Position numbers and translations under genes: made by a program. Under the pieces are notes generated by a model. It worked only from the letters and a program-made list of their open reading frames with translations. It made no database searches and was not told the DNA's origin. From Aldersonia sp. NBC_00410 (GTDB lineage Bacteria; Actinomycetota; Actinomycetes; Mycobacteriales; Mycobacteriaceae), in contig NZ_JAPENM010000006.1 of the NCBI RefSeq assembly GCF_026342035.1, forward strand, positions 310,001 through 374,000: a stretch of DNA of 64,000 nt. Direction: 5' to 3'. Shown here piece by piece: positions 2,893 to 59,888 of the stretch (the stretch's first letter is position 1; the number at the start of each line of letters is the position of its first letter).

Positions 2893-4164
2893 ATGGCTCG
2901 CTTCCCGAAACCGCCGGAAGGCAGTTGGACGCAACACTATCCGGAGCTCGGCACCGGACCGGTTTCCTACGAGGATTCCATTACCCCCGAGATCTGGGAG
3001 CTCGAGCGCAAGGCGATTTTCAAGCGTGCCTGGCTCAATGTTGGTCGCGTCGAACAAATTCCGCGCAAGGGTAGTTACTTCACCAAAGAACTCGCGGCAG
3101 CGAACACGTCTCTCATCCTGACCCGCACCGGCGACGGAGAGATCAAGGCGTACCACAACATCTGCCGGCACCGCGGCAACAAACTGGTGTGGAACGACCT
3201 GCCACAGGAGGAAACCAGCGGCACGTGCCGCCAGTTCACCTGCAAGTACCACGCCTGGCGCTACGACCTCGACGGCAACCTCACTTTCGTGCAGCAGGAA
3301 GGTGAATTCTTCGACCTCGACAAGAGCAAGTACGGCCTGGTTGATGTGCACTGCGAGGTCTGGGCCGGCTTCATCTTCGTCAACCTGTCGAAGGGAGCGC
3401 CGGAGCAGTCACTGCGCGACTTCCTAGGGCCGATGGTTACCGATCTGGAGGGCTATCCCTTCGATCGCATGACATCGCGGTTCACCTACCGCTCCGAGGT
3501 GAAGGCGAACTGGAAGCTGTATATGGACGCGTTCCAGGAGTTCTATCACGCACCGATCCTGCACGGGAACCAGTCGCCGACCGCCTACTCCAAAGCTGCC
3601 GCCCAGGCCGGTTTCGAAGCACCGCACTATCAGCTGGACGGGCCACATCGCCTGGTCAGTACCTCCGGCGTGAAGGCCTGGGAAATGGCCGCCGAAATGC
3701 GTAAGCCGGTCGAGGACATCTGCCAGAGCGGCTTGTTCGGGCCATGGGAAAAGCCGGACCTCGGCGAGATGCCCGTCGGCCTCAATCCGGCCAAGTGCGA
3801 TCCCTGGGGTCTGGATTCGTTCCAGCTGTTCCCCAACTTCACCATCCTGATCTGGAGCCAGGGTTGGATGTTGACGTATCACTACTGGCCAACGTCGCAC
3901 AACACGCATATTTTCGAAGGGACGGCGTACTTCCCGGAGCCGCGCACGCCACGCGAGCGGATTGCCCAGGAGCTCGCGGCCGTAACTTTCAAGGAGTTCA
4001 GTCTGCAGGACGCGAACACTCTGGAGGCCACGCAGTCGATGATCGAATCCCAGGTCGTGCGCGAGTTCCTGCTCAACGATCAGGAAATTCTGATTCGCCA
4101 TCTCCACAAAGAGACCGCCGCCTGGATCGATGACTTTCAGCGCAAGACCGCAGGAGTGAAGTAG
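2893..4164 (+). CDS. Rieske non-heme iron oxygenase alpha subunit, canonical
   Basis: Ring-hydroxylating oxygenase alpha-type protein, 423 residues. The Rieske ligands are complete: C91-x-H93 and C117-x2-H120. The mononuclear iron site is H219, H224 and D373, with E216 in the place of the bridging acidic residue in the DAFQEFYH motif. It should use O2 and electrons from the reductase at 6422-7474. The start follows GAGGAGA, and an in-frame extension upstream is unlikely because it runs through the operator. The next gene encodes a small helical protein 3 bases on. A homologue at 8294-9553 lacks the Rieske histidines. No classical beta subunit is nearby, and the substrate is unknown. Confidence 0.93.
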   Translation: MARFPKPPEGSWTQHYPELGTGPVSYEDSITPEIWELERKAIFKRAWLNVGRVEQIPRKGSYFTKELAAANTSLILTRTGDGEIKAYHNICRHRGNKLVWNDLPQEETSGTCRQFTCKYHAWRYDLDGNLTFVQQEGEFFDLDKSKYGLVDVHCEVWAGFIFVNLSKGAPEQSLRDFLGPMVTDLEGYPFDRMTSRFTYRSEVKANWKLYMDAFQEFYHAPILHGNQSPTAYSKAAAQAGFEAPHYQLDGPHRLVSTSGVKAWEMAAEMRKPVEDICQSGLFGPWEKPDLGEMPVGLNPAKCDPWGLDSFQLFPNFTILIWSQGWMLTYHYWPTSHNTHIFEGTAYFPEPRTPRERIAQELAAVTFKEFSLQDANTLEATQSMIESQVVREFLLNDQEILIRHLHKETAAWIDDFQRKTAGVK

Positions 4165-4167
4165 ACA

Positions 4168-4497
4168 ATGACAGCGTTGCTCCCGTCCGAATTTGTTGAT
4201 CTCGAGCAGTTCTCGGAATGGATCCTGCCCACCGAGCCGCAGCGTTACGCGAAGCGGCTGGGGAGTCGTATGTCCGAGATGCAGGCGTTCTATGACGCCA
4301 TCACCCCGCGCGCCGAAGACGCGATCGCCTACTGTGACAAGTTCCGGCTCGACGACTTGCCCGACGACGTTCTCAACTTGATGCACCTGCTGTATTCGAT
4401 GATCGCGGTGTCGTTTCCTGTGGAGTGCTGGAAACAGCCGCAAATTCCCGATTCCGGTGCCACGAAACTAGACTGCGTGCACGAGCCCGTCCCGTGA
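4168..4497 (+). CDS. Small helical protein paired with the Rieske oxygenase (copy 1)
   Basis: Protein of 109 residues that I cannot assign to a named family. It looks alpha-helical and soluble and is rich in acidic and aromatic residues. It is clearly homologous to the product of 9553-9888: both share FYDA, YCDKF, LDDLP and a Pro-Val-Pro C-terminus. Each copy directly follows a Rieske alpha gene, here with a 3-base gap and a GGAG site inside the upstream gene. The duplicated arrangement suggests an accessory or structural partner of the oxygenase. It is too short for the usual NTF2-fold beta subunit. The function is unknown. Confidence 0.85.
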   Translation: MTALLPSEFVDLEQFSEWILPTEPQRYAKRLGSRMSEMQAFYDAITPRAEDAIAYCDKFRLDDLPDDVLNLMHLLYSMIAVSFPVECWKQPQIPDSGATKLDCVHEPVP

Positions 4498-5747
4498 CGG
4501 GCGTGATCGTCCTCGAGGCGGCACGGTGGGTCGACGTCGTTGCGGGACAAGTGCATTCGCCGGCGACCATCGTGGTCGAAGGGACGCATATCGTCGCAGT
4601 CGATCCGCATGATCCGCTGCCCGAATCCGCCACCGTCATCGATCTCGGCGACGTCACGCTGTTGCCCGGCTTGATGGACATGGAGCTCAACCTGCTCATC
4701 GGCGGCCCGGGCGGGCCCGAGGGCCTGCCGAGCCCGATGCACGGTGTCCAGGACGATCCGGCGTACCGGACGTTGCGTGGTGCGGTCAACGCCCGCACCA
4801 CGCTCGACGCGGGCTTCACCACAGTCCGCAACCTCGGGCTGATGGTCAAGACCGGTGGCTACCTGCTCGACGTCGCACTGCAGCGCGCGATCGATCAGGG
4901 CTGGCACCCCGGTCCCCGTATCCATCCGGCCGGTCATGCGGTGACTCCCTATGGGGGACATCTCGATCCGACCGTGTTCCAGCGTCTGGCGCCCGGCATT
5001 ATGCCGCTGTCGATCGCGGAGGGAATCGCGAACGGCGTGCCGGACGTGATCGCCTGCGTCCGCTATCAGGTTCGCCACGGCGCCAAGCTGATCAAGGTCT
5101 CCGCCTCGGGCGGCGTCATGTCGCACAGCACCTCACCCGGTGCCCAGCAGTACTCCGATGCCGAATTCGAGGCGATCGCCGACGAGGCGCATCGGGCCGG
5201 GGTGAAGGTGGCCGCGCATGCTGTCGGCGACACCGCGATTCAGGCGTGCATTCGCGCCGGTATCGACTGCATCGAACACGGCTTCCTGGCCACCGACGAG
5301 ACGATCCAGATGATGGTCGACCACGGCACCTTCCTGGTCTCTACGACGTACCTCACCGATGCGATGGCGATCGACCGGATCGCACCCGAGCTGCGGGCGA
5401 AGGCGGAAGAGGTTTTTCCGCGGGCAAAAGCCATGCTGCCCAAGGCGATTGCCGCTGGTGTCCGCATCGCGTGCGGAACCGACGCGCCGGCAGTACCGCA
5501 CGGCCAAAATGCGAAGGAACTCGTCGCCCTGGTGGAACGCGGCATGACGCCGTTGCAGGCGCTGCGGTCCGCCACGGTGGTCGCCGCCGAACTGGTCGAT
5601 GTGGACCACGAACTCGGGCGTCTGGCGCCCGGGTACCTGGCCGACATCATTGCCGTTCCCGGTGATCCGTCGCAGGACATCTCCGCAACGCTCGACGTGC
5701 AATTCGTCATGAAGAACGGCCGGATTCACAAGTCTCCCGCCGCCTGA
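4494..5747 (+). CDS. Amidohydrolase-superfamily protein lacking the HxH motif
   Basis: Amidohydrolase-type TIM-barrel protein of 417 residues, related to imidazolonepropionase and prolidase-like hydrolases. Later metal and catalytic positions are present: the Lys of IKVSASGG (about 201), H242, the His of IEHG (262) and D330 in CGTDAP. The first metal motif, normally D-x-H-x-H after strand 1, reads DMELN, so E64 and N66 replace both histidines. The GTG start at 4494 overlaps the stop of the preceding gene in GTGA, which implies coupled translation. It may be a hydrolase with altered metal use, a lactone or amide opener in the pathway, or non-catalytic. Confidence 0.85.
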   Translation: MTGVIVLEAARWVDVVAGQVHSPATIVVEGTHIVAVDPHDPLPESATVIDLGDVTLLPGLMDMELNLLIGGPGGPEGLPSPMHGVQDDPAYRTLRGAVNARTTLDAGFTTVRNLGLMVKTGGYLLDVALQRAIDQGWHPGPRIHPAGHAVTPYGGHLDPTVFQRLAPGIMPLSIAEGIANGVPDVIACVRYQVRHGAKLIKVSASGGVMSHSTSPGAQQYSDAEFEAIADEAHRAGVKVAAHAVGDTAIQACIRAGIDCIEHGFLATDETIQMMVDHGTFLVSTTYLTDAMAIDRIAPELRAKAEEVFPRAKAMLPKAIAAGVRIACGTDAPAVPHGQNAKELVALVERGMTPLQALRSATVVAAELVDVDHELGRLAPGYLADIIAVPGDPSQDISATLDVQFVMKNGRIHKSPAA

Positions 5748-5799
5748 TGGCGCCGCCCGCGGGACCTCGTGGGCGGCTCCATTGCGATAGCGTCGAGAG

Positions 5800-6297
5800 A
5801 TGGCGAGCGAGGAATCCCGTGGTCGGAACGGGCAGGAGAAGCGGTTGGAACTCACCGACAACACGCTCTGGCTGCTGAAGCAGGCCTTCTATTTCTCCCT
5901 CACCACCGTCAACGAGGCCGTCAAGCAACACGGTGTCAGCACCGCCCAGATCGGCCTGTTGCGCCAGCTCACCAACGAACCCGGACTGTCCGGCGCCGAA
6001 CTCGCCCGGCGTCTGCTGATCACGCCGCAGGGGGTTCAAATCGCTCTCACCGCGCTCGAAAAGCGCGGTCTGGTGCAACGCCGCCAGGACCCGCAGCACG
6101 GCCGCATCCTGCAAGCGTTCCTCACCGACGAGGGCAAAGAGGTCGCCGCGGCCGTGGTCAGCGATGCCATTGCCGCACACGAGCAGGTGTTCGGCGTCCT
6201 GACTCCCGAAGAGCACGCGACACTGCGCGATCTCCTGGGCCGAGTGGTCGAAAAGGGGACCGGGCACGAGGTCATCAGCGACCACGTCGATCTCTAG
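5800..6297 (+). CDS. MarR-family transcriptional regulator
   Basis: Winged-helix regulator of 165 residues with a MarR domain from about residue 25 to 150. The recognition helix region is GAELARRLLITPQGV and the wing contains RRQDPQHGR. MarR proteins are usually dimeric repressors released by a small aromatic or lipophilic ligand. It lies inside the catabolic cluster, 52 bases after the amidohydrolase. Three matching 16-bp pseudo-palindromes follow it at 6351-6410, with a fourth at 2745-2760, so it probably represses the reductase and oxygenase transcription units. The ribosome-binding site before the ATG is weak. Confidence 0.9.
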   Translation: MASEESRGRNGQEKRLELTDNTLWLLKQAFYFSLTTVNEAVKQHGVSTAQIGLLRQLTNEPGLSGAELARRLLITPQGVQIALTALEKRGLVQRRQDPQHGRILQAFLTDEGKEVAAAVVSDAIAAHEQVFGVLTPEEHATLRDLLGRVVEKGTGHEVISDHVDL

Positions 6298-6350
6298 GTC
6301 GGGTCTCCGGTCGTTGCCCATTTTGGCCAGTTCGTCCTGCTCAACAGCTA

Positions 6351-6410
6351 TATCAAGTAATTGATATGCGGGTATGTCAACTACTTGATAAGGATGCCAA
6401 GTAGTTGATA
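6351..6410. promoter_or_regulatory. Cluster of three predicted MarR operators
   Basis: Three 16-mers share one architecture: TATCAA-GTAA-TTGATA (6351-6366), TGTCAA-CTAC-TTGATA (6375-6390) and TGCCAA-GTAG-TTGATA (6395-6410). Their centres are 24 and 20 bases apart, roughly two helical turns. The last site ends 11 bases before the reductase ATG, so occupancy should block its promoter or initiation. The region is much richer in AT than its surroundings. Confidence 0.65.
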
Positions 6411-6421
6411 CTCTGCAAGAG

Positions 6422-7474
6422 ATGCCCGAGTCCTCGCCTTCCTCGCCCGCCGTCGCGGCTGTGCCCGACGGTTTTGTGCCGTTGCTGGTAACCGACGTGA
6501 TTCGGGAAACGCCGGACGCCGTGTCCGTCGAATTCGAGGTGCCGCCGGCGAGCCGCCAGCGGTTCCGCTACAGCGCCGGGCAATTTCTCACGCTCTCGAT
6601 ACTTATCGATGGCACCGAATACCGCCGCTGCTACTCGATGTCGTCCACGCCGTCGGTTGGCGAGAACCTTCGGGTCACCGTCAAGCGTGACCGCGACGGG
6701 CGCGTGTCGAATTGGATCAACGACAACGTGACACCGGGGGATCGCGTGCACGCCGCCCCGCCGCAGGGCCGGTTCGTGCTCGATGCATCCGACCGTGAGT
6801 TCGTTGCCTTCGCCGGCGGCAGTGGAATCACCCCGGTGTTCTCGCTGCTGCGCTCCGTACTCGGGAAGACCACTCGCAGCGCGCGTCTCTTCTACGCGAA
6901 CCGGGCCGAGAGTTCGGTGATCTTTGCCGACGCGCTCGGCAGCCTGAGCGATCGGCACGCCGGCAGGTTCGAGCTTCGGCACCATCTCGACGAGACGCAC
7001 GGGGTCGCCAATCCGGAGAGCATCGAATCCTTCCTCGCTGGTGCCGCCGAGTGCGAGTTCTACATCTGCGGCCCTGCACCATTCATGGCGACGGTGGAAG
7101 CAGCGTTGCTTGCCGCCGGCGTGCAGAGCGAGCGGATACACGTCGAGCGATTCGCATCGACGGTGCCGGAGCTCACCGCGCAGGACGAGGCCGCGACCGT
7201 CACCGAGGAGGTGACGATCGAGCTGGACCGGAAGAAGGTCACGCTGCCTTACCGGGCGGGATACACGCTGATGCAGATGGCCCGGTCGGCCGATATGCGT
7301 CCGCCATCCTCCTGTGAGACCGGAACCTGCGGAACGTGCATTGCGCAGGTGACCGAGGGGGCGGCCAGACTGCTCAACAACGACGTGCTCGACGACGACG
7401 AGATAGCCGAGGGCTACGTCGTCACCTGCCAAGCCCTGCCCACCACCCGAACGGTCCGGGTGGTTTACGAGTGA
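6422..7474 (+). CDS. Oxygenase reductase, FAD/NAD(P) with C-terminal plant-type [2Fe-2S] (KshB/PaaE-like)
   Basis: Electron-transfer reductase of 350 residues that should pass electrons from NAD(P)H to the Rieske oxygenase. The order is an FAD domain with RCYSMSS near residue 70, an NAD-binding domain with GGSGITP near 133, and a C-terminal plant-type ferredoxin with C298-x4-C303-x2-C306 and C336. This is the KshB/PaaE order. It is the only oxygenase reductase in the cluster, so it probably serves the canonical alpha protein. It starts just after three predicted MarR operators and runs into the SDR gene. Confidence 0.92.
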   Translation: MPESSPSSPAVAAVPDGFVPLLVTDVIRETPDAVSVEFEVPPASRQRFRYSAGQFLTLSILIDGTEYRRCYSMSSTPSVGENLRVTVKRDRDGRVSNWINDNVTPGDRVHAAPPQGRFVLDASDREFVAFAGGSGITPVFSLLRSVLGKTTRSARLFYANRAESSVIFADALGSLSDRHAGRFELRHHLDETHGVANPESIESFLAGAAECEFYICGPAPFMATVEAALLAAGVQSERIHVERFASTVPELTAQDEAATVTEEVTIELDRKKVTLPYRAGYTLMQMARSADMRPPSSCETGTCGTCIAQVTEGAARLLNNDVLDDDEIAEGYVVTCQALPTTRTVRVVYE

Positions 7475-7500
7475 GCACAGCCGATACCGATGGAGCGGAA

Positions 7501-8247
7501 ATGACGACACGAGTCGCGGTAGTCACGGGCGGAGCGTCCGGCATGGGCGAGGCCACCTGTCATGAACTGGGTCGGCGCGGCTACAAGGTCGCGGTGCTCG
7601 ACCTCGATGAGCAAGCAGCGCAACGGGTTACCGATGATCTGCGGGCCGACGGGGTGACCGCCCTTGCGGTGAGTGCGGACGTCACCGACCGATCCGCGGT
7701 CGAGAACGCCTTCGCAAAGGTGCGCAGCGAGCTCGGCCCGGTGCACGTGCTGGTGACGAGTGCGGGGCTGTTCGGGTTCTCTGCTTTCACCGAGATCACG
7801 ATCGAATCCTGGTCGCGCATCATCGATGTCAACTTGACCGGCACCTTCCATTGCTGCCAGGTCGCCCTGCCGGACATGATCGCCGCGGGCTGGGGCCGGA
7901 TCGTGATGATCTCGTCGTCCAGCGCGCAGCGCGGGTCCCCATTCGCCGCGCACTACGCGGCATCCAAGGGCGGGGTCATCACGTTGACCAAATCGCTGGC
8001 ACGCGAATATGCCACGGCCGGCATCACGGTGAACAACATTCCACCGTCCGGTATCGAGACGCCGATGCAGCATGCCGGGCAGGCGGCGGGCTATCTGCCG
8101 CCGAACGAGGACATTGCCAAAGCGATACCGATGGGCCGGTTGGGTAGCGGAGCGGATATTGCTGCTGCAGTGGGGTTCTTGTGCTCCGACGAGGCGGGGT
8201 TCATCACCGGACAGGTGCTCGGAGTCAACGGTGGTTCGGTGCTGTGA
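7501..8247 (+). CDS. Short-chain dehydrogenase/reductase
   Basis: Classical SDR of 248 residues. It has the cofactor motif TGGASGMG at the N-terminus and the catalytic pair Y152-x3-K156 in YAASKGG, with Ser in the preceding ISSSSA strand. It should oxidise a secondary alcohol or reduce a ketone with NAD(P)(H). The ATG at 7501 follows GGAGCGGAA. A GTG at 7471 overlapping the reductase stop is an alternative that would add ten residues. It sits between the reductase and the second oxygenase, which fits dehydrogenation of a hydroxylated intermediate. Confidence 0.92.
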   Translation: MTTRVAVVTGGASGMGEATCHELGRRGYKVAVLDLDEQAAQRVTDDLRADGVTALAVSADVTDRSAVENAFAKVRSELGPVHVLVTSAGLFGFSAFTEITIESWSRIIDVNLTGTFHCCQVALPDMIAAGWGRIVMISSSSAQRGSPFAAHYAASKGGVITLTKSLAREYATAGITVNNIPPSGIETPMQHAGQAAGYLPPNEDIAKAIPMGRLGSGADIAAAVGFLCSDEAGFITGQVLGVNGGSVL

Positions 8248-8293
8248 CCGGTAGAGCAGGCCAATGTGATTCGACGACCAGCAGGAGGTTGGC

Positions 8294-9553
8294 ATGACTG
8301 CACCAGCTAAGCCGGCGGCGGGGTCGTGGACCGCGCATTACCCCGAACTGGGTACCGGCCCGGTTTCGTTCCGCGACTCGATCTCCCCCGAGTTCTATGC
8401 AGACGAGCGAGAAGGAATCTTCAAGCGTGCCTGGCTGAACCTCGCCCGGGTGGAGGAAACGCCGGCCGTCGGGAGTGTCGCGACCAAGGAGATCGAGGTC
8501 GTCGATGCGTCGGTTCTGCTCGTTCGCGGGCAGGATGACCGAATCCGCGCCTTCCACAACACGTGTCGGCAGCGCGGCCATAAGGTCGTCCCGGTCGGCC
8601 TGGCCGATGCCGCGGACGCCCGTGACAACTTGGCATGCCCGCGCTGCGGATGGCGTTATGCACTCGACGGCGCTCTGATCCACGTTCCGAACGAGTCGGA
8701 GTACTTCGGGCTGGATCGCGCAGCCCATGGCTTGATCGAGGTGCACTGCGATGTCTGGAACGGCTTCGTGTTCGTCAACTTCGACGAAACGCCGCGGCAG
8801 ACGCTGCGCGAGTTCCTCGGCCCGATGATCACGGGCCTCGACGATTACCCGTTCGACAAGCTGACCGAGCGCTACGAGTGGATTGCGCACAACAACAGCA
8901 ACTGGAAGATCTTCGCCGACGCGTTCCAGGAGTACTACCACGTTCCGTCGTTGCACAGCCAGCAGGTACCGGCGGCGGTCCGCAAGCCGAATGGCGGATT
9001 CACCTGTGCGCATTTCCAACTCGACGGTCCGCACCGCTTGGTATCGACGGCGGGCACACGGCGCTGGCTGCTCGATCCCGAATTCATGTACCCGATCGAA
9101 CGGGCGACCGAGAGCGGTCTCGTCGGTCCGTGGCGCTCGCCCGATCTCGGCCCCATCCCGGCAGGCGTGAACCCGGGCGGGGTGGAGAACTGGGGAATCA
9201 GCAATTTCCAGATCTTCCCGAATCTCGAGATCCTCATCTATCACGGCTGGTACCTGCTGTACCGGTACTGGCCGACCTCGCACAACACCCACCGCTTCGA
9301 GGCCTATACCTTTTTCCATCCGGCGCGCACCGTACACGAGCGGATCGAGCATGAGGTCGCGGCCGTGGTGCTCAAGGAATTCGCCCTGCAGGACGCCGGC
9401 ATGCTCGGCGGTACGCAGGCTGCCCTGGAATACGACATCGTGGACGACTTTCCGCTCAACGATCAGGAGATCCTGGTCCGGCACCTGCACAAGGTGGCAG
9501 TCGACTGGGTCGACGAATATCGGTTCGAGCGCGGCGAAACGGTGGTCCGATAA
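8294..9553 (+). CDS. Rieske oxygenase alpha homologue with a degenerate Rieske site
   Basis: Protein of 419 residues, collinear with the alpha protein at 2893-4164 over its whole length. The mononuclear iron ligands are kept (H216, H221, D367, with E213 in DAFQEYYH). The Rieske ligands are not: the first pair reads C91-R-Q93 and the second C115-x2-C118, so both histidines are replaced while three cysteines remain. A normal two-His Rieske cluster therefore cannot form; H88 or H96 might serve as substitutes. The frame is intact with a strong AGGAGG site, so it is not a simple pseudogene. It may be a partner subunit of the canonical alpha, a protein with another cluster type, or a non-redox protein. 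Confidence 0.88.
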   Translation: MTAPAKPAAGSWTAHYPELGTGPVSFRDSISPEFYADEREGIFKRAWLNLARVEETPAVGSVATKEIEVVDASVLLVRGQDDRIRAFHNTCRQRGHKVVPVGLADAADARDNLACPRCGWRYALDGALIHVPNESEYFGLDRAAHGLIEVHCDVWNGFVFVNFDETPRQTLREFLGPMITGLDDYPFDKLTERYEWIAHNNSNWKIFADAFQEYYHVPSLHSQQVPAAVRKPNGGFTCAHFQLDGPHRLVSTAGTRRWLLDPEFMYPIERATESGLVGPWRSPDLGPIPAGVNPGGVENWGISNFQIFPNLEILIYHGWYLLYRYWPTSHNTHRFEAYTFFHPARTVHERIEHEVAAVVLKEFALQDAGMLGGTQAALEYDIVDDFPLNDQEILVRHLHKVAVDWVDEYRFERGETVVR

Positions 9554-9888
9554 TGCCGAACACAATGTTGCCCAGTGCCTTCGCCGATCTCGAGGCGTTC
9601 GCACCGACCTGGTGCCTGGCCACTGAAACCGAGCGCTGGAATGCGCGCATTTCCAGCACGCTGCCGCAGCTCCGTGAGTTCTACGATGCCTTCTTCCCGC
9701 GGCTGGAGGAGGCGATCGAATATTGCGACAAGTTCGACCTCGATGATCTTCCGGAGGATGCACTCAACTTGCTGCACCTGATCTATTCACTCGTCCTGAT
9801 CGCGATGGCCGTCGAAATCATGCATCAGCCCGCGCCGGTCGATGGTGCGGACGCCGTGATGATCCGGACCGACGCACCCGTGCCCTGA
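9553..9888 (+). CDS. Small helical protein paired with the Rieske homologue (copy 2)
   Basis: Protein of 111 residues homologous to the product of 4168-4497, sharing FYDA, YCDKF, LDDLP and the PVP end. Its ATG overlaps the TAA of the degenerate Rieske gene in TAATG, so the two are translationally coupled. The two-gene module (oxygenase alpha plus this protein) has clearly been duplicated within the cluster. No cofactor motif is visible. The function is unknown; an oxygenase-associated subunit is the simplest reading. Confidence 0.83.
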   Translation: MPNTMLPSAFADLEAFAPTWCLATETERWNARISSTLPQLREFYDAFFPRLEEAIEYCDKFDLDDLPEDALNLLHLIYSLVLIAMAVEIMHQPAPVDGADAVMIRTDAPVP

Positions 9889-9955: not shown

Positions 9956-10801
9956 ATGAGTCTGCTGACCATCAACAAACTCACCGACACGGTCGGTGCC
10001 GAGGTTGTCGGCATCGATACCGCCCGCATGGTCAGCGACGATGCACTGGCTGAGGCGATTCTTGATGCCTTGGAGGACAACGGCATCCTCGTCTTTCCTG
10101 CTGCGCACTTCGATCCGGCGGATCAGGTCGACTTCTGCCGCCGGCTCGGCGCGATCGACCATTCGGCCGACGGTCACCACGCCGTGCCCGGTATCTATCC
10201 GGTGACGTTGGACAAGTCGAAGAACTCGTCGGCGGCCTACCTGAAGGCCACCTTCGACTGGCACATCGACGGATGCACTCCGACCGACAACTCATACCCG
10301 CAGATGGCGACCGTGCTCTCGGCCGTCCAGGTCGCCAGCAGCGGTGGTGAAACCGAGTTCGCCAGTTCGTATGCGGCCTACGACGGGCTCACCGATGAGG
10401 AGAAGGAGCGCTTCGGCTCGCTTCGCGTGGTGCATTCGCTCGAGGCGTCACAGAGCCGGGTCAACCCCGATCCGACACCGGAACAGCTGGCGCAATGGCG
10501 ATCCCGGCCCACTCACGAACATCCGCTGATCTGGAGTCACCGCAGCGGCCGTAAGTCGCTGGTACTGGGCGCCTCGGCCCACTATGTGGTCGGCATGGAC
10601 TTCGACGAGGGCCGTGCCCTGCTCGACGAACTGCTCGAGCGCGCCACCACCGCAGAGCAGGTGTACAGCCACAACTGGTCGGTCGGTGACACGGTCATCT
10701 GGGACAACCGTGGCGTGCTGCACCGGGCCGCGCCCTACGACGCCAACTCGCCGCGCGAGATGCTGCGCACCACGGTGCTCGGCGACGAGCCGATCCAGTA
10801 G
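9956..10801 (+). CDS. TauD/TfdA-family Fe(II)/2-oxoglutarate dioxygenase
   Basis: Dioxygenase of 281 residues expected to couple 2-oxoglutarate decarboxylation to hydroxylation or cleavage of a substrate. The Fe(II) triad is visible as H103-x-D105 in FDWHIDG and H256 in RGVLHRAAP, with the 2-oxoglutarate-binding Arg shortly after. The start follows GGAAAGGA by six bases. It is co-directional with the oxygenase genes, 67 bases downstream. Family members act on sulfonates, aryloxyalkanoates, carnitine precursors and sterol side chains, so the substrate is open. Confidence 0.92.
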   Translation: MSLLTINKLTDTVGAEVVGIDTARMVSDDALAEAILDALEDNGILVFPAAHFDPADQVDFCRRLGAIDHSADGHHAVPGIYPVTLDKSKNSSAAYLKATFDWHIDGCTPTDNSYPQMATVLSAVQVASSGGETEFASSYAAYDGLTDEEKERFGSLRVVHSLEASQSRVNPDPTPEQLAQWRSRPTHEHPLIWSHRSGRKSLVLGASAHYVVGMDFDEGRALLDELLERATTAEQVYSHNWSVGDTVIWDNRGVLHRAAPYDANSPREMLRTTVLGDEPIQ

Positions 10802-59032: not shown

Positions 59033-59447
59033 GCCACTGCCTCCTGAAACCGCGAGGTCACGCGGTGCTACTTGTGAGCGGAAGTCATCGGCGACACAGC
59101 AAAATCTAGTGCACCCGTGCCAGTTTTTCGCCCCCTTTGCGGCGTGTCGCATGGCGGCGTGGGCGGAGTCACACCGCATGCCGGCGAGCGTGCCTGCGGC
59201 TTTGCCCAACGTTCACCGAGCCGACATATTGCGGCTGTGCACGGGGTGGAGCGCGTTCGTGTGGTGGTGATCAGTGGTGAACCCGGTCACCCACGCGCTG
59301 ATTCTCAGTTTGTCGCAATCGTCCGATGTCGCCGCGGACCGGGCGGCATCCTTGAAACGTGTGGTCGTCCCAGGCGCCGTGAACTCCACGGCCGCCCCGG
59401 ACGTGATCTCGACGATTGCTCGACAGCCCCCGAGACTTGGAGATCCC
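59033..59447. other. Intergenic region, 415 bases
   Basis: No convincing gene. An open plus-strand frame from 59274 runs into the Rieske gene but has no family resemblance before 59448, where a ribosome-binding site and Tat signal mark the real start. The region should contain the promoters of the two divergent genes. Confidence 0.5.
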
Positions 59448-59888
59448 ATGAGTGCAGAAGACCTCATGATCAATCGCAGAACCGCCGTCGCGGGTGCGGG
59501 AGTGGCGGTTGCCGCCGTCGCATTCGCCGCCGCGTGCAGCAGTGACTCGTATACCGAGTCCGACGCCACCACCAGTGCGGGGGCCAGTCCAGCGCCCGCG
59601 GGTCAGGCCGGGAACATCGTCGGCAAGACTTCGGACGTGCCGGTCGGTAGCGGTGCGATCCTCGGCGACGTCGTAGTCACCCAGCCGACAAGTGGCACGT
59701 TTCTCGCGTTCTCGCCGGTATGTACGCATAAGGGTTGCAATTGCGACGCGGTGACGGGCGCGACGATCAATTGCCCATGCCACGGTAGCAAGTTCAATCT
59801 CGATGGCAGCGTGGCGGTCGGACCTGCGACGCAACCGCTTGCGGCGAAGGCGGTGACCGTCGACGGCGACTCGATCATCGTCACCTGA
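59448..59888 (+). CDS. Tat-exported Rieske [2Fe-2S] lipoprotein
   Basis: Protein of 146 residues. The Tat motif NRRTAVAG near residue 9 is followed by a hydrophobic stretch and the lipobox-like AFAAAC, then a Ser/Thr/Ala linker. The C-terminal Rieske domain holds CTHKGCNC and CPCHGSKF. It is anchored outside the membrane and probably takes part in electron transfer to an unknown acceptor. GGAG precedes the ATG. It is unrelated to the oxygenase Rieske domains at the left of the window. Confidence 0.88.
   Translation: MSAEDLMINRRTAVAGAGVAVAAVAFAAACSSDSYTESDATTSAGASPAPAGQAGNIVGKTSDVPVGSGAILGDVVVTQPTSGTFLAFSPVCTHKGCNCDAVTGATINCPCHGSKFNLDGSVAVGPATQPLAAKAVTVDGDSIIVT

Follow-up and report, generated by a model that had tools for sequence, protein, structure and literature searches.

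A conserved pair of Rieske-type oxygenase large subunits in Aldersonia and its relatives, one with a remade cluster site

A stretch of 64,000 nucleotides (nt) from the genome of Aldersonia sp. NBC_00410 (contig NZ_JAPENM010000006.1, positions 310,001 to 374,000; G000:C8:310001-374000 in our genome set, here called the window) contains genes for two paralogous large subunits of a Rieske-type oxygenase, each followed by a gene for a small helical protein. The Rieske ligand set C-x-H/C-x2-H is present in the first large subunit (α, P0001) and absent in the second (α′, P0002), as well as in 60 further α′ sequences from other genomes. A pair in which one subunit has a remade cluster site is a new form within the Rieske oxygenase family, and no description of such a paired system was found in the literature searched, the coverage of which was partial. 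The two modules comprise the following features.

2893..4164, + strand: α (P0001), canonical Rieske oxygenase large subunit of 423 amino acids (aa), with Pfam Ring_hydroxyl_A and Rieske domains
3163..3171, + strand: Rieske motif 1 of α, C91-x-H93
3241..3252, + strand: Rieske motif 2 of α, C117-x2-H120
3538..3564, + strand: bridging Glu216 and iron ligands His219 and His224 of α; the third ligand, Asp373, lies at 4009-4011
4168..4497, + strand: small partner of α (P0003/P0004 set), 109 aa, matching no known family
8294..9553, + strand: α′ (P0002), large subunit of 419 aa with non-canonical Rieske ligands
8564..8572, + strand: motif 1 of α′, C91-x-Q93, with the His93 position lost
8579..8581, + strand: His96 of α′, candidate replacement ligand
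8636..8647, + strand: motif 2 of α′, C115-x2-C118, with Cys replacing His120 of α
8930..8956, + strand: bridging Glu213 and iron ligands His216 and His221 of α′; the third ligand, Asp367, lies at 9392-9394
9553..9888, + strand: small partner of α′, 111 aa, four helices predicted

The two large subunits are collinear homologues, with 211 of 411 residues identical (51%, E 1e-161), and the Rieske and Ring_hydroxyl_A domains were found in both. The catalytic domain (PF00848) scored 123.1 bits in α and 161 bits in α′ at a cut-off of 24.9, whereas the Rieske domain scored 53.4 bits in α and 38.2 bits in α′. Judged from its sequence, α′ belongs among the relatives of the Rieske oxygenase family but, by its ligands, would not itself be a Rieske protein. 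In the window protein, the loss of His93 is accompanied by a histidine at position 96 (CRQRGH). The sequence AGGAGG precedes the ATG of the α′ gene, which overlaps the gene of its small partner by one base (9553), stop on start. An earlier note on this DNA had described the frames, ligand residues, small partners, mononuclear triads, and collinear homology of the two proteins, together with an intact frame, a strong ribosome-binding site, and coupled translation for α′, and all of these were borne out.

We compared 162 unique α′ rows obtained after merging identical cores, with positions given in P0001 numbering. Four fragments shorter than 330 aa were dropped (L073, L092, L154, and L246); L246, from genome G438, is an α′ with a canonical Rieske motif and a disrupted frame, and is likely a pseudogene or an assembly error. 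Seven further α′-type rows, all intact, matched P0001 slightly better and stand outside the 162 rows and the 99 pairs described below. The sampling was not random, as the 80 loci of the contig scan and most fetched stretches favoured likeness to the degenerate P0002, with 18 low-scoring or mid-ranking genomes in addition. Both Rieske histidines were kept in 101 of the 162 rows and not in the other 61, a proportion that gives no prevalence because the fetched genomes favoured P0002-like rows.

The degenerate rows carry an ordered replacement series. Fourteen have C-x-H/C-x2-C and three have C-x-H/C-x2-S; 28 have C-x-[RQ]-x2-H/C-x2-C, with His93 lost and His96 present (CRRRGH in most); and 16 have C-x2-C in both loops, typically CPRC..CKRC. 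The second-motif histidine is the residue changed in all 61. The CRQRGH form occurs in the window and in Aldersonia kunmingensis, so that Gln93 is found in 2 of 162 rows; the other rows without His93 have Arg or Gly at this position, and Cys at position 93 was found in none of the α′ rows. The earlier note had suggested looking for a consistent Q/C replacement, which as a family rule is contradicted by these counts. Its two proposals of a mixed α/α′ assembly and of an all-Cys cluster in α′ are both still live readings. Two C-x2-C knuckles of the zinc-ribbon or rubredoxin type are present in 16 of 162 relatives, although they are absent in the window copy.

The bridging Glu and the three iron ligands (E, H, H, D) were present in all 162 rows. 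Leaving the four-Cys clade aside, the remaining 45 degenerate rows all keep Cys91 and Cys117, 42 of them keep Cys120, and Arg92 and Gly95 are invariant, although Trp100, Cys112, Arg113, Thr116, Lys118, and Tyr119, which are at or near 100% in intact rows, drift. Cys112 is an additional cysteine, five positions ahead of motif 2; it is found in α and in 99% of intact α′ rows, whereas most degenerate rows have lost it. The four-Cys rows have Cys91, Cys94, Cys117, and Cys120 in 16 of 16, and many of their other positions are invariant too because these rows are close relatives. In L139, an example of this class, the Rieske model scored 15.5 bits, under the cut-off of 20.3, and zinc-ribbon models matched weakly (E 0.03-0.05, below cut-off). 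All degenerate rows but three retain four possible ligands. Cys94 or His96 was present in 44 of 44 rows without His93 versus 4 of 85 rows with it. We regard Cys94 as a likely and His96 as a possible replacement ligand. Among the rows matching P0001 best, 108 were canonical with EHHD, one was CH|CR (G118), and two had a canonical Rieske site with the aligned Asp missing (a gap in one, Gln in the other).

The earlier note had proposed that homologues keeping both histidines would indicate local decay. Such homologues exist (the 101 intact rows), but local decay is not implied, because the 61 rows from many species carry the ordered series. Local decay or sequencing error in the window was ruled out, as a like change recurs in 61 unique rows; the degenerate α′ is real, conserved, and not accounted for by decay.

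Ratios of nonsynonymous to synonymous substitution (dN/dS) were calculated by a custom-written Nei-Gojobori count, with the lobe defined as residues 84-130. Outside the lobe, dN/dS was 0.075 for intact α′, 0.087 for the His96 class, 0.101 for the C-x-H/C-x2-C class (8 pairs), and 0.115 for the four-Cys class. Inside the lobe, the corresponding values were 0.066, 0.123, 0.231, and 0.181, and the comparison of the window with Aldersonia gave 0.066 outside and 0.410 inside. Because dN/dS is low outside the lobe and raised inside it, the α′ protein is kept, with a lobe that is relaxed or changing by its own rules. In a tree built with the ligand columns excluded, 44 degenerate rows formed one clade (Shimodaira-Hasegawa-like approximate likelihood ratio test, SH-aLRT, 88), and the 16 four-Cys rows together with L231 formed another (97), beside intact rows (93). 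The tree suggests two separate origins of degenerate α′.

The predicted structure of α′ (mean predicted local distance difference test, pLDDT, 80.0) aligned over its full length to CntA (6y9c), with Z 30.0, a root-mean-square deviation of 3.0 over 330 residues, and 17% identity. The two ligand loops had pLDDT 91 each (blocks 91-100 and 111-120), and the segment between them (101-110) 54. The model was weak around the iron ligands, where residues 211-250 had pLDDT 56-57. Purifying selection on the degenerate α′ and conservation of its fold and active-site residues agree with the function that the earlier note had considered probable, and the pairing of α genes with small partners, also raised there, is conserved across genomes.

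The two small partners in the window (P0003 and P0004) are identical at 50 of 109 residues (46%, E 2e-34) and had no match in Pfam or NCBIfam, so that in these two proteins, the ones searched, no β subunit of the NTF2 type known from α3β3 oxygenases was recognised. A Pfam search with 69 small-partner members gave stray matches only, the best at E 0.021 and each in at most two members; a sequence search of the PDB gave a best E of 0.43; and a Foldseek search of the PDB with the predicted model found nothing at E<=0.001. This model was all-helical with four helices (pLDDT 91.2, predicted template modelling score 0.82). Of the 301 unique family members whose flanking sequence was long enough to tell, 297 are followed by a small-partner gene that starts at -60 to +150 nt relative to their stop codon. 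On this sequence evidence, the small helical partner looks like an undescribed oxygenase subunit.

The contig scan yielded 80 loci, nearly all from Mycobacterium or Mycolicibacterium, plus Aldersonia and Gordonia, in which α, small partner, α′, and small partner recur as a set, save where contig ends cut it. P0002 matched at E<=1e-60 in 97 of 401 genomes of a family-wide sample and at E<=1e-185 in 212 of 396 genomes of a mycobacterial genus sample, and P0001 matched at E<=1e-70 in 50 of 394 genomes of a class-wide sample. In two further families of the class, 15 loci, chosen since the search showed two members close by (at L340 the second member is incomplete, and L332 and L348 have masked residues), carried the canonical motif throughout. 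In 14 of these 15 loci, one member had the iron-site signature E-F-Y-H and the other E-Y-Y-H, as in α and α′. The pair is old and widespread rather than a local duplication. At one locus, L157 (G258), two equal-scoring α genes of the C20 type with a small partner flank an α′-type gene and a P450 gene, like a recent duplication.

Among 99 unique α/α′ pairs, both subunits were intact in 70, only α′ was degenerate in 28, only α in one, and both in none. The reverse case (G118) has an α with C-x-H..C-x4-C, in which the second histidine is again replaced by Cys and two residues are inserted; a second such case was absent in the genus sample of G118 (9 genomes). The pairs are suggestive, not proof, of a rule that α stays intact where α′ is degenerate, because the reverse case rests on one genome.

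Searches with P0002 and P0004 found four α-type genes with four small partners in the Aldersonia sp. NBC_00410 genome. The two outside the window are a canonical gene at C20:200893-202152 and P0005 (393 aa) at C20:270413-271543, about 70 kb away on the same contig, for which the canonical protein is a conceivable partner. Both ligand loops are deleted in P0005, in which Pfam recognised the catalytic domain (120.1 bits) but not a Rieske domain. A search of 401 genomes with P0005 gave matches at E<=1e-130 in 18 of them, at 20 loci. All 20 had the E-x2-H-x4-H of the iron site; a canonical Rieske motif was present in 14, and six from four genera lacked any (G000, G118, G184, G027, G204, and G145). 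Most of the lobe is gone in the 365-aa copy of G184. Each of the six deleted copies has an adjoining small partner and a divergent neighbour gene common to all six, which encodes a TetR-type regulator in the copy tested. The deleted paralogue is an independent cluster loss with the catalytic domain kept. A TauD-type oxygenase gene lies behind both the Rieske-deleted module (L253:10934-11800) and the α′ module (window 9956-10801).

The gene order in the window is P450, aldehyde dehydrogenase (opposite strand), α, small partner, amidohydrolase, MarR regulator, reductase, short-chain dehydrogenase, α′, small partner, TauD-type oxygenase, unassigned small protein, CMD protein, and acyl-CoA dehydrogenase. 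Four genes separate the two modules.

4497..5747, + strand: amidohydrolase downstream of the α module, start codon tentative; an amidohydrolase adjoins other α modules too
5800..6297, + strand: MarR-type regulator
6422..7474, + strand: reductase with flavin (FAD), nicotinamide (NAD), and plant-type [2Fe-2S] (Fer2) domains, likely electron donor
7501..8247, + strand: short-chain dehydrogenase, between the reductase and α′

The reductase has these three domains only and no Rieske domain, and no Rieske ferredoxin gene was found among the ten neighbours scanned. The P450, aldehyde dehydrogenase, amidohydrolase, TauD-type oxygenase, CMD, and acyl-CoA dehydrogenase genes point to catabolism and to nothing narrower on the substrate.

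The long-standing view of Rieske oxygenases is that electrons travel between subunits, leaving the Rieske cluster of one for the mononuclear iron of its neighbour. We take His104 of naphthalene dioxygenase (NDO) to be its second-motif Rieske histidine. The bridging acid of NDO, Asp205, touches this His104, which serves as a Rieske ligand in the adjacent subunit (PMC4231759). In CntA, the cluster lies 44 Å from the iron of its own subunit and 12.2 Å from the iron on the other side of the interface, and Glu205, the bridging residue, is essential (PMC7948474); a review describes the bridging acid as joining ligand histidines of both centres (PMC12445004). By homology with NDO, the second-motif histidine would be the residue from which the electron passes to the next subunit, and because it is changed in all 61 degenerate rows, α′ may be impaired as a sender and intact as a receiver.

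The simplest reading, we infer, is a mixed assembly in which α supplies the electron. In such a physical complex, α and α′ would be an old pair of large subunits acting jointly, each with its own small helical subunit, and in the lineage including the window α′ would have lost its canonical Rieske ligands, the second-motif histidine first. With its bridging Glu and 2-His-1-carboxylate iron site kept, α′ would still receive an electron from α and do chemistry. Its lobe, with three Cys and one His or four Cys, would bind zinc, a rubredoxin-like iron, or a low-potential 3Cys-1His [2Fe-2S] cluster, and the remade site would mainly hold the fold. We put even chances on α′ being an electron acceptor fed across the interface by the Rieske cluster of α, with a differently liganded metal site in its own lobe. 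The broader proposal of a stepwise change from a Rieske site to a Cys-rich metal site, with one-way electrons from α to α′ in a half-wired oxygenase bearing a new class of small helical subunit, is put forward more tentatively.

In whole-length fold, α′ resembles oxygenases of the CntA/Stc2 and HcaE type, and its bridging acid is Glu, like that of CntA, and not Asp. It differs from them in lacking C-x-H/C-x2-H, in being accompanied by an intact paralogous α, and in having a small partner of no known family. The nearest precedent appears to be NdmC of the caffeine N7-demethylase NdmCDE, an oxygenase without its own Rieske cluster, which takes its Rieske domain from NdmD and acts with a non-catalytic helper protein (PMC10380055). 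As described there, NdmC is a catalytic iron domain without a cluster of its own, whereas α′ keeps the lobe with Cys for His, its operon reductase has no Rieske domain, and its candidate donor is a full paralogous oxygenase. NdmA and NdmB are likewise two paralogous α subunits, said to form a mixed α3-α′3 hexamer, but both keep canonical Rieske clusters (PMC10380055).

Mutants of a Sulfolobus Rieske-type ferredoxin are altered at the same ligand positions as α′: His64Cys gives a low-potential 3Cys-1His [2Fe-2S] cluster, His44Ile/Lys45Cys/His64Cys gives an Fe(Cys)4, rubredoxin-like site, and a single His-to-Cys change at the position homologous to 93 is reported to fail (PMC2946596). Both engineered ligand combinations occur naturally among α′ rows at homologous positions. 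The mutants are stand-alone laboratory proteins, whereas α′ is natural, part of an oxygenase subunit, and has Arg, Gln, or Gly rather than Ile at position 93. In ligand count, mitoNEET-type 3Cys-1His [2Fe-2S] proteins equal the C-x-H/C-x2-C class. Their fold is unrelated.

Several observations weigh against a mixed assembly fed by α. The faster evolution of the lobe in degenerate rows is what plain relaxation would also give, and a single degenerate clade is not rejected (approximately unbiased test, p 0.345, 39-row subset). A three-membered ring cannot hold α and α′ at 1:1. The absence of double losses is statistically weak, with a single genome in the 'α only' category. Ser is tolerated at position 120 in three rows. 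In G204, the Rieske-deleted protein is the sole family member found at E<=1e-25, and because no other member was found it cannot depend on a family partner. The link between loss of His93 and a replacement comes from three independent pairs, short of significance, and position 96 is a His in CntA too, the cluster of which is canonical; on these two grounds, we did not accept His96 as a proven new ligand.

Alternatively, α′ might work alone as a homo-oligomer whose altered lobe still carries electrons through a low-potential 3Cys-1His [2Fe-2S] cluster or, where four Cys are present, through an Fe(Cys)4 site like that of rubredoxin. The homologous ferredoxin mutants that build such centres (PMC2946596), the four possible ligands in all degenerate rows but three, and the plant-type [2Fe-2S] domain of the operon reductase are in keeping with this. 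We consider it unlikely, because the first ligand to be replaced corresponds, by homology with NDO, to the one in contact with the neighbour's bridging acid, the rate of change in the lobe relative to synonymous change is 2-6 times that in intact α′, Ser is tolerated at position 120 in three rows, and α is intact in 28 of 28 pairs with a degenerate α′. Somewhat less likely again is a non-catalytic structural or regulatory pseudo-subunit of the α oxygenase; a relaxed lobe and a loss of the ligands specific to one lineage would fit such a role, but none of the 162 rows has lost the bridging Glu or any of the three iron ligands, and dN/dS is low over the catalytic domain.

Electrons for α′ might also come from a protein other than α, either the reductase or some Rieske protein encoded elsewhere, in the way that NdmC is supplied by NdmD (PMC10380055). 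The Aldersonia genome has 18 matches to Rieske proteins, and the G204 deleted paralogue manages without another family member found, but the operon reductase lacks a Rieske domain, no Rieske ferredoxin gene is among the ten scanned neighbours, and the conserved neighbour is α, so we regard this as improbable. Simple decay, with a redundant Rieske site drifting without metal or new role, would agree with the 101 intact rows, which make the loss derived, with the raised dN/dS in the lobe, and with the disrupted frame of the intact-type α′ of G438. It is very improbable given that Cys91 and Cys117 are kept in 61 of 61 rows and Cys120 in 58 of 61, that Cys94 was gained in 16 of 16 rows of one clade, and that constraint outside the lobe is strong.

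If α is the single sending subunit, the natural pair would allow the cross-subunit rule to be tested within a single enzyme and with no need of mutants, and it raises the question of whether unequal subunits confer control. The species series from intact through three-Cys to four-Cys forms may represent a route by which a Rieske site becomes zinc-ribbon or rubredoxin-like, a link that so far comes from structure comparison and engineering (PMC2946596).

Two other Rieske-domain proteins were observed in this genome. A 204-aa protein (47.6 bits) is encoded at 59274-59888 (+ strand) of the window, about 50 kb from the α and α′ genes. Additionally, three Rieske domains in tandem, all above the Pfam cut-off, occur in a putative lipoprotein encoded near 305 kb of contig C20 (L256:4978-6399, - strand), its lipoprotein signal having been assigned by eye.

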